A DNA stretch of 64,000 nucleotides from positions 308,001 to 372,000 of the forward strand of contig JAWNZC010000472.1 in NCBI GenBank assembly GCA_035771165.1, read 5' to 3'. Positions 10,910 through 48,391 of this stretch are shown piece after piece (positions within the stretch are counted from its first letter, which is position 1; each line of letters begins with the position of its first letter). Origin of the DNA: Paragorgia papillata (lineage: Eukaryota > Cnidaria > Anthozoa > Scleralcyonacea > Coralliidae). A program made the position numbers and the translations under genes. The notes beneath the pieces are model-generated. The model was not told the DNA's origin, did no database searches, and saw only the letters and a list, made by a program, of their open reading frames with translations.

Positions 10910-12631
10910 ATGTCAAGAGATATGACCAAACTGATGTTACTAGTAACTTGTCTTCTTTGCGCTTTTATCTTCTGCGGAAGTTCGAATGAACTCTACGCCT
11001 GCACAAACTCCGTGTTTTGTCAAGGGGAAATCCTACACGCCGTTCAGATGGCAAAGATATTCGACGACGCAAAAACCTTTGTCGACATGCGAATGAAATA
11101 CAACGAACAAGTAATCCGCAAGAATTTCCAAACGCTTGGCGCAAAACCGAGCAAGGCGCAACTCAAGAGGTTTGTGGAGGACAACTTTAATCCAGTCGGC
11201 AATGATTTGGAACAGTTCAGTCCTGATGATTGGGTCGAACGACCAAGGAATCTGAAACGCATTAAAAACAAGAAACTTCAATCGTGGGCATTCGCCTTGA
11301 ATAAACTTTGGAAAGCGCTTGGAAGGAAGATCACGGAGAAAGCACGCCAAAACAGCCGACGATCTTCGTTGATTGTGGTCGAAAATCCGTTTATAGTTCC
11401 AGGGGGGAGATTTCGCGAGTATTATTACTGGGATTCTTATTGGATACTAAACGGAGTACTCGTCTGCGGCATGAACGACACCGCAAAAGGAATGATCATG
11501 AACTACATCGAACTGGTGAGACGCTTTGGATTTGTACCAAACGGTGGTAGAGTTTATTATTTGAACCGAAGTCAACCACCGTTTCTCATTCAAATGGTTC
11601 ATCTGTATTTCACTTACACCAACGACATTGAATTTCTTCGTAAAAACTTGCCAGTTCTCGAAAGGGAATACCAATTTTGGGAAAGCTATCGAAGTGTAAG
11701 CTTGAATATTTCTGGGATTCCGCGCACGTTTGCTGTGTACAAAGCAAACATGACCACGCCCCGACCGGAGTCTTATTGGCACGATTATGAGACTGGGAAC
11801 GAAATAAAGGACGCCACCGAAAAGTCGCGTTTCTATCAGGCAGTCGCTTCCGCAGCGGAAAGTGGGTGGGATTTTTCGAGTCGGTGGTTCAATAAATCGG
11901 GCCCTGGTGCAGGTCGTTTTAGGTCAATCCATACACCCGATATTATCCCCGTGGACCTAAATTGCATTTTGTACAAAAATGAGTTAAGTCTTGCCAAGTT
12001 CTTCGAATTAACTGGTGACCAATCGAAAGCCAAGGAATATCAGAAATTAGCCAATAGGAGGAAACTTGACATCGAGGCTGTATTATGGGACGAATCCTTA
12101 GGGTCATGGGTTGACTATGACATCACATCGAACAAGCGAACTTTGGACTTCTACGCTTCAAGTGTTGTCGCGCTTTGGTCAGGAATCGCGCGTGGGAATT
12201 CCTCGCGCGAGGAACACGTCTTCGACAACATGAAGAATGCGAAAGTGTTAGATTTTCCCGGGGGGTTACCGACATCAATGATGGAGTCCGGGGAGCAATG
12301 GGACTACCCGAATGCTTGGCCTCCGCTACAGCACATGTTCATCGTTGGCTTGAGTCAGTCTCGGTCCACTTTCCTTCAGAACGAGGCTAAAAAGTTCGCG
12401 CAGTCCTGGGTACAAAACAACTGGAAGGGATACGCCAGGACCAATCACATGTTCGAGAAATATAATGTGACGTCAGAAGGGAATACGGGACGAGGAGGAG
12501 AGTACAAACCACAGGTTGGATTCGGGTGGACCAATGGGGTCATCCTGGACTTACTTCTACGCTATCCTGACGATCTTAAAGTTGAAAACGGGGCTCCACA
12601 ATCTTGGGTGTCGCTGTCTGTTGTTTTATAG
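10910..12631 (+). CDS. Trehalase (GH37), secreted or membrane-associated
   Basis: Single-exon gene for alpha,alpha-trehalase, which splits trehalose into two glucoses. I chose the start at 10910 (573 aa) because MSRDMTK followed by a hydrophobic run LMLLVTCLLCAFIFCG makes a normal signal peptide. An in-frame ATG at 10859 would add 17 residues. Both family signatures are present: PGGRFREYYYWDSY (about residues 164-177) and QWDYPNAWPP (about 463-472). The catalytic acid and base seen in bacterial GH37 enzymes match D321 in GWDFSSRW and E516 in FEKYNV, and the glycine-rich GNTGRGGEY loop follows. Length is normal for animal trehalases. The lack of introns contrasts with the multi-exon neighbours. 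No C-terminal hydrophobic GPI-type tail is obvious. Confidence 0.95.
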   Translation: MSRDMTKLMLLVTCLLCAFIFCGSSNELYACTNSVFCQGEILHAVQMAKIFDDAKTFVDMRMKYNEQVIRKNFQTLGAKPSKAQLKRFVEDNFNPVGNDLEQFSPDDWVERPRNLKRIKNKKLQSWAFALNKLWKALGRKITEKARQNSRRSSLIVVENPFIVPGGRFREYYYWDSYWILNGVLVCGMNDTAKGMIMNYIELVRRFGFVPNGGRVYYLNRSQPPFLIQMVHLYFTYTNDIEFLRKNLPVLEREYQFWESYRSVSLNISGIPRTFAVYKANMTTPRPESYWHDYETGNEIKDATEKSRFYQAVASAAESGWDFSSRWFNKSGPGAGRFRSIHTPDIIPVDLNCILYKNELSLAKFFELTGDQSKAKEYQKLANRRKLDIEAVLWDESLGSWVDYDITSNKRTLDFYASSVVALWSGIARGNSSREEHVFDNMKNAKVLDFPGGLPTSMMESGEQWDYPNAWPPLQHMFIVGLSQSRSTFLQNEAKKFAQSWVQNNWKGYARTNHMFEKYNVTSEGNTGRGGEYKPQVGFGWTNGVILDLLLRYPDDLKVENGAPQSWVSLSVVL

Positions 12632-13029: not shown

Positions 13030-16000
13030 CTATCGCGGTATTTCGTCATCGTCGTCTTCATTGCTTTCTTCGTCAGGAGCGCACTAGAATAAAATATCAT
13101 AATTATAAAATGATAATTTATATTAACCGTGCTAGAATAGGGACTAGAGTAAAATGGTTTAAACCTAAGGCTATTATTAGTATATGTTTGAAAGTTGCTT
13201 GTCCAGGTTAGTGTAGTCTTGAGAAAGACTGTAAGTGGTAGTGACTGACATTGTAAAAGTAAATAGTTTGAGTCTAGGCGTATTAGTACATGTTTACATG
13301 TGAAAGTTGCTTGTCCCGGTTAGTGTAGTCTTGAAAAAGACTGTAAGTGGTGGTGACTGACATTATAAAAGTAAATGGTTTGAACCTAGAAGTATTAGTA
13401 CGTACATGTTTGTAAAAGTTGCTCATCTAGGTTTATAGTGTAGTCTTGTGAAAGACTGTTAGTGGTGGTGGTTGGTAGTGATTGGCGTTTCGACGGCCTC
13501 AGTGGCGGTCATCCTCAGAATTAAGTAAAATGTTTCTCTCAGTTATGTATCTGGTTCATCTAAAATATTTAAAGGGGATTGGCATTAAAAATTAAGTTTG
13601 TCTAATTTGAAAGAACTCATAAAATTGTAATAGAAGATCCTTTACAACTTTTTCGTATCTTTCTGCGTTTTCAAGATATTTCAATTTGTTGGATATGTAA
13701 ATGAGATGGTCTCTGACGTGGAGTGGGGTAAAATATTTTCATACAGAGCAAAATCACTTACATATCTAACATAAAATGTTTAGCGTCGCAAGGAGTTTTT
13801 ATGTGCACAGTTTCAAATGATTTGATTTCGCTGAACAAACTTAGAGATATAACTGGTTTTGCTACATGTGAAAATATTTTACCCCACACCTGACGTCAGA
13901 GACCATCTCATTTACATATCAAACAAATTGAAATATCTTGAAAACGAAGAGAGATACGAAAAAGTTGTAAAGGATGTTCTATTACAATTTTATGAGTTCT
14001 TTCAAATTTGACAAACTTAATTTTTAGTACTATTGCCCTTTAAAACATGAGCAGTGTTTTATCAGATTAAAGACACGAGACGATAGCCAAGTGTTTTAGA
14101 TCTGATGAAACAGCTTGAAAAACGACCCATTTGGTAAATTCATTGGCGTAGTATTTTTAAAAAAATAACGTTGTCTAAGCCGAGAAAATCAAAGCTAAAT
14201 ATATAAATTATATGTAAATCAAGAGAATATTTTTATGAGATATAAAACCACGGACATGGCACTGATTTCCTTTGGGCTTTCTTCATGAATTATTAATGAT
14301 TTTTGAAAAGTTGAATACACTTTAAACTGAAGTATTTCGTACCAAATATTCGACAAAGCAAACTTGTCCATCTTCATTAATGATCATGTACTGCAGTGAC
14401 AAGAAACCTCGGTTGTCCATACGAATGGAAGTCTTGCTGGAAAGATTTAAAGCTTTTGTCGACGGCTTTAAAAGAGTTATCTTGTACCTATAGACAGAAG
14501 TAGAAACCACAAATTATTTTGATAAAGTGGTTCACTTGAAAAGTGAAGTCAGGATTTTCATATCATTCACTTCGGATTCAGTGAGTCCCCTGCTGTGTGT
14601 TACCTTTTGACAGGGAACAGTTTGTAGGGGAACTGAAAGCGACTTAATTAATATAGCTGACTTCATTTTCTGCCCCGGAGTTAGCGTTCCATATGTACTA
14701 TTTTAATATTAATTTAATATTAGTCCCACATTTTCTATTCTAAGTGACGTAGCATAAATGGCCTTACTGGTCATCATTTGTCATTCAACAAATGTTGTTG
14801 GGCAACGAATGTTTGCATCTTCATCTTGTATGAGGACGCTACCAGCGTACCTCACTCAAGATAGTTGAATGCGAAGTGTCTGTACACTTGCTACAGAACT
14901 GATATGATAAGTGTCTGTAAATGTGATACAGAACTGATGTTTTTTTTAAACAGTTCTGTATCACATTTACAGACACTGATATCAGTTCTGTACCGGGGTA
15001 AACAGACATTAATTAAACCTTAATTTCTTTTGAATTTTCCTCATGAATTATTAATGAGTTTTAGAAATAATATTATAATATGAAACATTAAATTTGTATT
15101 TCTACCTGTTTGTTTGCGTTTTCTCACATTCGAATGATTCCACCATGTCTGAATCCTTCGGGTAGTCGACCTAAATGAGGAATGTGTACCGAACTAGAAT
15201 ATAAATTCAAAATATGTAAAAACTGAAATGCCGAAACCTACAATAATCACTTATTTAAATATATTTCCAATGTTTCGTTTTCCCATACTACTACATACAC
15301 GCAGCAAAATAATATTATCATTTATAGACCTGGAGCGAGGGGAATTCGATGAAATATTACCCCGAGGTATGATATATCATCCCAAGGGGTAATATTTCAT
15401 CGAATTCCCCGAGCGAAAGGTCTATAAATTATATATTATATCGAAACAATTAATCTTTCCAAAAAAAGCTTAAATAATGTTAATAAAGTTAGCTTAGCTT
15501 AACTTTTGTCCGCTTTTCATTGTCTGTTTCCATTCTTTTGTCGTCTCAAGGCTTCTGGATGCATTGTTTGTTGTTTTCTTTGTATTCCCTGAATCCTTAT
15601 TTTCTTGTAACCTAACAATCTTCTTGTCAACATCTGAGTGTTCAGGCGAAACGTTTTCTTATCTCGCCAAACTCCGCCATTCAGGCGTCGTACACGAACT
15701 CGAATACCCCGCGTATTCGAAGTTATACCCCGCTATGGAGGTTAATTATACGATAAATTAACTGGTCACGTGGTACAAATCAAGCTCTCTGACTGGACAA
15801 TTCACAGTTGAGATATAATATTTTAAGTAGTATACACTAATGGCTTAATACCATAACGTATCGTTGCAGAACACTAATTTGGAGCGTCTAATAAAAAAAT
15901 TCTGGTCTTTAGCGGGGTCATTAGAAAGTTTCAGCTGTTTTGATAACGAAATACTGACGTTTCGAGCGAAGCCCTTCAGAGTTAGCCCAAAGTTTCTTGT

Positions 16001-19000
16001 AGTGTACTTACATGAGCACTGCCAGCGTGACCAAATGTAGAAAGTCTAAAAAATGGACTATCAGGCGACATCAAGATTTCTAAGACTTCGCTGGTCATAT
16101 CCAGTTCACTAAAAGCTTCTTTCAGACACTCAGACTGTCGTCAAACATATTTTTGAAAAACAAAGTACAAGTTAATTCTTTGAAAGTTTTCATGGCGATA
16201 ATGTAATATAAATAACGTGGAAACACCACGTAAAATATTTCTTTGCTAAGCTTTCGGCCTGTTGACTCAGGCCTTCATCAGAGCAATAACACCAGAGCAA
16301 TGAGTCAAGACACCAGAGCAATGAATAACACCAGAGCAATGAGTCATGACACCAGAGCAATGAGTCATTGCTCTGGTGTCTTGACTCATTGCTCTGGTGT
16401 TATTGCTCTGATGAAGGCCTGAGTCAACAGGCCGAAAGCTTAGCAAAGAAATATTTTACGTGGTGTTTCCACCGAAACTTATTTATAAAGTACAAGTTAT
16501 AAACATAAAATTAATTTTGGTGAACCATGATTTTTAGGTATGGTTGATATAATAGAACTGATTCTCATTGTTATTTTAATTGGAATTATTACGAAAAGAC
16601 AAAGCATTTCTCAATTTTTTTACGCTCGATTTATAAGAGGACATTTGCTTTTTTAAGGACATTTGCTTTTTTAAGCTTAGGCGGTGTTATTAGTATTTGA
16701 TTTTTAGTTGAGATTATCTTAAGGAAACAACGTTAAGTATAGAAAAATAAAAGTAGTGTCCTGCATAGGCAGTGTTGAAACAACAATCGAAATATAGTAA
16801 CTTAGGTTAGATATACTGCCGAAACAGAGAACGTAGGAGTCTAACGTTTCGAGCGAAGGCCCTTCGTCAGAGAGAAACGTGAAGGGCCTTCGCTCGAAAC
16901 GTTGGACTCCTACGTTCTCTGTTTCGGCAGTATATCTAATCTTACTATAGCTGTGTCTACTGCTTACTGTTTTGAATTACTGTCGATGTTTATTTCGCAC
17001 CTTCATTATTATTTTGTTAACCACATTAGCACTTGTGAAATTAAAATCCAATGCTTCATCTGGTTCTTCTGTTTGTATGCTGCAATCTGTTAATACTCCT
17101 CCTTCTTCTAATCTTTAAGAAACAAATTATTTGTATGATTATATACATAATCAGGTATGTAATTGATCAGTTGGTTGATTGATTAATCATCTTGAATAAC
17201 CCCAGATTAGAATATAGCTTAACTTTTGATTCATTGTTATCATTATCACCATTATTATCACCACCACTGTCATTAACATCATCATCAATGATGATAATGA
17301 TCATCGTCAACATCATCATCATCATCAACATCAACATCATTATCATCATCAACATCAACATCATTACCATCATTATCATCAACACTATCATTAACATCAT
17401 CATCATCAACAACATGAATCATCGTCATCATTATAACCATCATTATCATTATCAACATCATCATCATTATCATCAACATCATCCTTATCATCGTCATCAA
17501 CATCATCATTATCATCATCAACATTATCATCATCAATGACAATCATCAACAACATCATCATCTGATTATCATCATCATTATCACAACTGTCATCAACATC
17601 ATTGTCATCTTCACCACCATCATCTCATCATCATCATCAACATTACTATTATCATCATCATTATCGTCATTATCAATGAACATCATCAATGGTCATCATC
17701 ATTATTGATCAACATCATATAATTAATCACCATCAACATCATCACCAATGTGATTATCACTATAATCATCAATGATCATCATTGATCATCATCAACATCA
17801 TAATCGTCATCAATAACTAAGACATACATGAGCACAAGGGGTGAACCATAACCAGTATAACACATCTTCAAAGCTGTTGTAACCGTGCTGTCTTTAGATG
17901 ATCCAAAAATATTGAGACAACCCTGTGAAAAAAAAACAAAGTCTTGCCATAAGCATGATTAAAAACAAAATATTTGAAACAAAATAAATAGAGGCAGGGC
18001 TGAGCCAGAATCTCAATTTCTGAACACCACCACCCTCATTTTTAACCACTGAAGATGTGGGAGAGTTGCTCAACATACTCTGAGTGACAGTGCTGTTTTG
18101 CCACCCTAGTATCAAGAAGGGTAACATATTTATCTAAATTAAATAAAACAAAAATCCTACCATGAGAGCATTGAGATTAATTCTAAATGTTGTGCTGTCT
18201 TCTTTAAATGTAAATTCTTGAAATATACCAGATTGAATAAAAGCATTAGCTTGAATGCACTTTGCATTCTCAACAGTCACCTTCAAACCATTTGAACTGA
18301 AAAAGCATGTGGCAGTCTGGAAAAGGAATTATTTATTGTATTAGTAGAAAGGTTCTTAGTGTAGAGCATGGGTTAGAAATCAAGGATTAGGAACATGCAA
18401 TTATCCCTGCAACAGGGTTGAGTTGAGACACAATTTTTTGAGTCCAAGTCCATGGCCAGTGGTGTGGTCAAGGGGGTCTCTAAGACCATTCTTGTGAAAA
18501 GTTTAAATCCGTGGGGAAACTTGGGGGGGAGGCAGTTGTTTTAAGGCCAAGTAGACTAGTAATATGTTGTTAATAAATAAATCTAAAGATATTCTGACAT
18601 GTATCATTCTTTATACAATAATTTGAATAGTACGTGCGTTTTTATTGGTTGATAGCCATGATCTATAAAAGGACAGATGCACAGATTACATCACTGATGT
18701 GGTCGATTTCTCTAAACCAATCACGGATCTCACTGCAACATCACGAGCCAATGACGTTGCTTGATTTGTATAGATCATGGATCACATCAGATGAAGTGAT
18801 TTATCTTTTTCAATGCCCCGGAAATTCGCTGGGAAAATTTAATAAGTCCGTTAAAACAGAATTTTTTCTATTTTTGTATTGTATAAAACAAATAGATTCC
18901 ATTTTTTTGTTGTCTGTTCAGTTATAGATGCACAGAAGACATCACAACGTGGTAAGAACATCAGTGACCCACTCGACTGCGTCTCGTGGGCCACTTTTTT

Positions 19001-20561: not shown

Positions 20562-48391
<27,830 letters not shown>

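Follow-up and report, generated by a model that had tools for sequence, protein, structure and literature searches.

Minimal type I hammerheads were reportedly described in Penelope-like elements (PLEs) by Cervera and de la Pena in 2014 and by Lunse et al. in 2017. According to one review, the double hammerheads of PLEs need a palindromic stem III loop together with a tandem arrangement (PMC6466107). For the PLE PAc of Anolis carolinensis (Poseidon/Penelope clade), the available part of the published account describes a protein that cuts and extends both DNA strands in vitro, two start sites for reverse transcription that bound the tail and show no difference between strands in vitro, and a protein-assisted hammerhead whose cutting is not required for insertion in vitro (PMC11167929). 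In Adineta, the pLTRs of Penelope elements are described as inverted, one of the two bearing a tail of 31 bp, and the target site duplication (TSD) as 9 bp long (PMC3846280).

The repeat found in Paragorgia papillata resembles these systems in many respects. It appears to share with PAc a protein of the reverse transcriptase and GIY-YIG type, a hammerhead adjoining the insertion end, an optional tail of 30-40 bp and two reverse-transcription start sites bounding this tail, but its copies are inverted whereas PAc loci are described as tandem, its two ends show different start sites (61/62 pairs of arms) whereas the PAc strands did not differ in vitro, and its hammerhead has a bulged A, a putative further difference (PMC11167929). 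With the Penelope families of Adineta vaga it shares inverted pLTRs, a tail on one of them, a short TSD and palindromes at the junction; it differs in that its arms usually have unequal inner ends, and ribozymes go unmentioned in the portion of the Adineta text consulted (word count 0) (PMC3846280). Compared through reviews, minimal type I PLE hammerheads similarly have almost no stem III, this stem being palindromic and suited to dimers, and lie at a PLE end; the bulged A after CTGANGA may set the present motif apart (PMC7761336, PMC6466107). As far as the available account of metazoan non-LTR retrozymes goes, these also carry type I hammerheads in abundant small repeats, but as short tandem units rather than at an inverted PLE end (PMC7229834).

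A palindromic insertion in a RAD1 intron

The window is the whole 64,000-nucleotide stretch of P. papillata DNA that was analysed. Matches to RAD1 (PF02144) on its minus strand, at about 18161-18322, 16003-16137 and 14382-14510 with one further stretch besides, flank the insertion on both sides, in agreement with the sequence-only reading of this DNA, which had placed the element inside a RAD1 intron. The intron in question precedes the match ending at 16137, from which the insertion is separated by about 35 nt. The same RAD1 region contains a long degenerate ATC-rich trinucleotide tract (about 17224-17815), and RAD1 is adjoined by a trehalase domain (PF01204, E 4.6e-161) encoded in a single frame on the plus strand (11054-12565).

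As delimited by its arm ends and flank repeat, the entire insertion (16172-16487) consists of two inverted terminal arms that point outwards, with filler between them. A 13-bp repeat, AAAGTACAAGTTA, read as the TSD, is common to both flanks; the last 3 bases of its left copy (16162-16174) fit the end of the tail too, and the right copy lies at 16487-16499. The tail, of about 35 bp, is found on the left arm only (16172-16206, minus strand), the right arm being tailless. At the core of the insertion is a perfect palindrome whose arms (16217-16324 and 16365-16472) are 108 nt each, 100% complementary and 40 nt apart. The filler (16291-16396) is made of short repeats, is itself largely palindromic and has no match to the PLE arm of the related copy L009. 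Just inside the outer end of the left arm there is a stem-loop GTGGTGTTTCCAC (16217-16229, minus strand), recognisable from its sequence and repeated in the right arm (16460-16472, plus strand), which is possibly, by analogy, the counterpart of the one reported close to where reverse transcription begins in the Anolis PLE (PMC11167929). Read in the sense direction and outwards, a typical arm of the family comprises TTGTTGTCATTGCT, the core, stem II, GAAAGCTT, AGCAAAGAAATATTTT, the stem-loop ACGTGGTGTTTCCAC and AAAACTTATTTATA, followed by either the flank or the 35-bp tail.

Each palindrome arm bears one hammerhead-like motif, the two lying on opposite strands with their sense strands directed outwards; in both, the core is complete and stems I and II are present. 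Direct reading of the plus copy (16403-16446) gives TTGCT (16403-16407), CTGATGA (16408-16414), an extra A (16415), stem II as GGCCTG (16416-16421), loop AGTCAA (16422-16427) and CAGGCC (16428-16433), then GAAA (16434-16437), GCTT (16438-16441) and AGCAA (16442-16446), with a predicted cut between 16441 and 16442. The minus copy (16243-16286) mirrors it, with CTGATGA to GAAA at 16252-16281 and a predicted cut between 16248 and 16247. The palindrome, its two complete motifs and the letter order and stem lengths previously given for them are all confirmed. Two further inverted repeats occur nearby. One, at 16804-16942, has 62-nt arms that are 97% complementary and a related core, CTGACGA-A-GGGC..GCTC-GAAACGTTAGA, again with an extra A, and is probably another PLE family; decayed copies of this second motif are found at 32462-32516, 44802-44855 and 15954-15974. 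The other, at 15316-15433, has 59-nt arms that are 85% complementary, with no spacer.

The affiliation of the insertion is best seen in its relatives. A search of the genome DNA with the element gave 103 matches, from 40 scored of 1542 candidates. In L009 both arms continue into long open frames. For the larger of these ORFs, 899 of 1196 candidates qualify as relatives (E<=0.001). PF00078 (reverse transcriptase), PF26215 and PF01541 (GIY-YIG) are found in many of the 120 listed, which include proteins of sea urchins, sea stars, insects, Anolis and lamprey. No Pfam family scores with the L009 ORF itself, nor did comparison with the PDB give a clear result for it, and the window copy has no ORF. 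The ends are arranged in the inverted order of PLE-type pLTRs in 72/131 loci, and a PLE-type 30-40 bp tail on one end is present together with a short TSD. With these ORF relatives, inverted ends, tail and target duplication, the family is best read as a PLE and the window insertion as a truncated copy of it, not a retrozyme.

Two other kinds of element were considered. That the repeat might be a hammerhead-bearing retrozyme or satellite with no relation to the protein genes of PLEs is suggested by the type I hammerheads known from short abundant repeats of cnidarians and molluscs, according to the available part of the relevant study (PMC7229834), but is very improbable. The arms of L009 join PLE-type ORFs, the arms are inverted, and neighbouring motifs are mostly back to back (7/8 near pairs in the first 100 of 1200 rows of the genome search described below); tandem repeats of about 150-450 bp, as in retrozymes, are not what these rows contain, only 1/8 near pairs being direct. 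On these grounds a retrozyme was rejected, and of the earlier suggestion of a PLE or retrozyme footprint only the PLE half is upheld, by the ORFs of L009, the inverted ends and the tail. A MITE, i.e. a non-autonomous DNA transposon with inverted ends, could account for the inverted ends and the flank repeat, but the arms are of unequal length, the tail is one-sided and PLE-type ORFs lie inside, leaving it with a negligible probability, and it too was rejected.

The hammerhead-like motif and its putative activity

Several lines of evidence bear on whether the motif is a hammerhead ribozyme. Both the CUGANGA and GAAA core of the type I class and stems I and II are present, as is a UH cleavage site (GCUU), while stem II does not directly follow CUGANGA, one A being inserted, and stem III could form only in a dimer, through AGCU. 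A descriptor requiring the core, GAAA, UH and at least 4 pairs in each of stems I and II had 26 distinct matches in the 338 kb made up of the window and the fetched loci, whereas three first-order Markov control sets together yielded 1; the count is not a genome rate because the loci were selected for this repeat. All 26 have exactly one extra nucleotide after CTGANGA, and one of them (L132) looks like chance. The descriptor is satisfied by just one decayed copy from the second motif family, that at 44.8 kb; its folding is no better than that of shuffles (z = 0.11) and is not that of a hammerhead. In the 50-nt stretch around the window motif, stems I and II do form on folding (z = -2.82), and only 1/200 shuffles folds as well. 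The original description, of a type I motif that resembles a hammerhead and has a tiny stem III, is supported.

The Rfam search that had been proposed as part of its refutation, run here without a known PLE hammerhead as positive control, was on the other hand negative, with no hammerhead score in the region or in the window. Positions 15000-18000 had 52 matches at E up to 10, none to a hammerhead family; 16385-16465 (81 nt) had 2 matches, neither of them a hammerhead; and at gathering level the whole window had 0 hammerhead matches. Matches to microRNA families (down to E 1.4e-7) fall on the palindromes and below gathering scores, and were rejected, because any long hairpin can score there.

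The extra A had been regarded as odd, an impression that the genome as a whole (617.9 Mb, 473 contigs) overturns. The pattern CTGANGA-A-GG-N(6-36)-CC-GAAA has 621+579 = 1200 matches against 26 for the reversed pattern, while the same GG..CC form lacking the A has 38 against 38 in the control, and of two such A-less matches whose letters were examined, one belongs to the family of the window element with an A -> G change. The extra A is therefore a family trait, a consistent variant feature, and the rule for the GG..CC class. Within the first 100 of the 1200 rows, 65 have the length of the window family and 21 are of 22-26 nt; 8 neighbour pairs lie within 2 kb, 7 of them back to back and 1 direct. 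A second pattern with canonical spacing, CTGANGA-GT-N(6-36)-AC-GAAA, has 512+500 = 1012 matches against 90 in the control, and its first 100 rows contain 25 neighbour pairs within 5 kb, of which 21 are back to back, 3 direct and 1 facing. At one GT..AC locus, three direct copies about 2.4 kb apart lie beside an inverted one, which resembles the tandem-plus-inverted layout of PLEs. Judging from this arrangement only, the GT..AC motifs would also belong to PLEs, and these layouts imply that at least two hammerhead architectures, with different closing pairs of stem II, occur in PLE-like arrangement.

The motif is of a known kind, namely a PLE end with a minimal type I hammerhead, whose self-cleavage is putative. 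The ribozyme of this PLE would have a stem I of 5 bp, one bulged A, a stem II of 6 bp and a stem III reduced to self-complementary AGCU. In the RNA of the PLE, cleavage would follow GCUU and would probably require a dimer or assistance from the element's protein. Action as a dimer is plausible given the self-complementarity of AGCU, and dimers in cis should be rare outside tandem copies, since neighbours are mostly inverted.

If cut RNA were the usual template for insertion, arms would start at AGCAA (position 1066 of the mapping reference). This is where 7/149 unique arm ends are found (one doubtful), with 8 at 1063, 3 of which are misaligned palindromes, and other positions from 1000 up reach 5 clean arm ends. 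A stricter search of the whole genome for arms starting exactly at the cut, limited to that position, had 4 matches, including two similar ones from a single contig, and 76 distinct arms run through the predicted site. There is at most a weak enrichment of arm starts at the cut: most inserted cDNAs do not start there, and the end points contain no clean cleavage footprint.

All this leaves some room for the idea that the insertion is indeed a PLE while its resemblance to a hammerhead is non-functional, a conserved terminal hairpin that is either a look-alike or a decayed ribozyme. The extra A that separates the core from stem II, the shortness of stem III in cis, the missing Rfam score, the lack of a clean pile-up of inner ends at the cut and the arms that pass the site uncut would all fit such a hairpin. 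Nevertheless, the core letters are all present, and the 76 distinct arms have substitutions at 10/828 sites in core plus GAAA against 86/3416 in the flanks (12/756 in stem I, 27/897 in stem II, 11/450 in loop II, 5/304 in stem III and 2/76 at the extra A). Moreover, core and GAAA are common to the two architectures, whose closing pairs differ and whose counts far exceed their controls, and the hammerhead of the Anolis PLE is reported, in the available part of that study, to cut in vitro with protein (PMC11167929). Stem II is no more conserved than the flanks, and with copies differing by 1-3% per site there are too few substitutions for covariation in stems. On balance a non-functional hairpin is unlikely, though well short of negligible.

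For the RAD1 copy, folding predicts a single long hairpin over positions 16161-16500 (-222 kcal/mol, plus strand), in which the ribozyme should be buried. The RAD1 pre-mRNA would contain the antisense arm first, then the sense ribozyme and tail. The proposal that the palindrome could place two ribozymes on one transcript was rejected, each strand having one sense and one antisense copy. Because these pair together, the hammerhead of the RAD1 copy is most likely a passive relic.

Tail asymmetry and the mode of insertion

The exact tailed end occurs 149 times in the genome (103 of these places being listed), against 0 for its reversed control. A first survey covered 68 loci, with 46 inverted pairs and 22 loci without a pair. 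Wherever both ends were readable (41 pairs), one arm was tailed and the other tailless (41/41); the 5 other pairs, including the window copy, whose tail was identified separately, have a truncated or split end. The full survey covered 131 loci (L009-L138 and the window). Inverted outward pairs are present in 72, of which 62 are distinct by junction, and in 61/62 one arm reaches the tail end while the other ends within 1105-1118 of the mapping reference. The exception, L039, has a tailless arm and a tail 13 nt short, and insertions with two full tails number 0/62. The seeding of the loci affects how these counts are read: 24/62 pairs come from loci seeded with the ribozyme region and blind to the tail, 23/24 of which have one tailed and one tailless arm, while 38/62 (38/38 with one of each) come from loci seeded with the tail, where double-tailless insertions could not show up. 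L026/L041 and L048/L055 share flank repeats and look like copies, so that at most 60 pairs are independent. No pair was found in 59/131 loci, and partners can lie outside, because 63/131 loci are only about 310 nt. Flank repeats measure at least 12 bp in 36/62 pairs and at least 9 bp in 46/62, some being cut short because small loci carry short flanks, whereas random placements in the loci of the first survey had a repeat of at least 12 bp in 8/920 and of at least 9 bp in 15/920. The presence of one tailed and one tailless arm per insertion is a well-supported regularity of the insertion of this PLE. A separate cluster, L116-L124 (contig C314, 2.00-2.61 Mb), comprises nine tailed copies with the same 3' flank ATTAATTACACT within 0.6 Mb, eight of the nine with an identical mapped inner end, and is probably one insertion multiplied by local duplication.

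The palindromic form was most likely left behind by the way in which PLEs insert. The sense strand of the right arm is plus and that of the left arm minus; the 3' side of the RNA is therefore turned towards the flank at either end, which is what priming on element RNA by both freed 3' DNA ends would produce. The element protein would make a staggered double cut at the target, and each freed 3' DNA end would prime reverse transcription of element RNA, one cDNA starting at the far end of the tail and the other at a point some 35 nt inside it. Synthesis of both cDNAs would then proceed back across the hammerhead and end prematurely, after which the two would be joined in the middle. Inner ends differ by >5 nt in 44/51 simple pairs, where the join mostly contains a short overlap or a short filler, and there is no significant bias as to which arm is longer (Wilcoxon p = 0.15). 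The asymmetry of the tail and the unequal inner ends favour two coupled target-primed reverse transcriptions.

A single priming followed by self-priming, in which one cDNA folds back and is copied, is the reading given for the Penelope palindromes of Adineta in the part of that report available (PMC3846280). It finds some encouragement in the window copy, whose arms are identical over 108 nt, filler included, and whose inner ends, like those of 6 other simple pairs, are equal within 5 nt (7/51); equal inner ends and a palindromic filler make a self-priming step possible for this copy. For the family as a whole it is improbable, since a fold-back copy would not have the unequal inner ends of 44/51 simple pairs, nor outer ends at two fixed and different positions in 61/62. 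The reading that we consider very probable is that of a PLE insertion by two coupled primings, with a minimal type I hammerhead that is most likely a relic in the RAD1 copy.

Significance for PLE biology

Since PLE hammerheads and inverted pLTRs are already in print, the motif amounts to a further family, in which the bulged A is consistent, and the find is mostly ordinary. The young insertion set, however, makes it testable why exactly one arm is tailed and whether the arms come from two primings. In the parts of the literature searched, no published count of tailed and tailless arms per insertion was found. The insertions also suggest that most inserted templates had not been cut by the ribozyme, in agreement with the in vitro findings on the Anolis PLE in the available part of that study (PMC11167929). 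We lean towards an obligate division of the two reverse-transcription start sites, one DNA end of each insertion using the tail site and the opposite end the inner site. If true, this division points to one asymmetric complex rather than two independent primings. The complex might be a dimer bound to a single RNA; alternatively, the tail site might be taken up by the first cDNA, so that the second must start inside.
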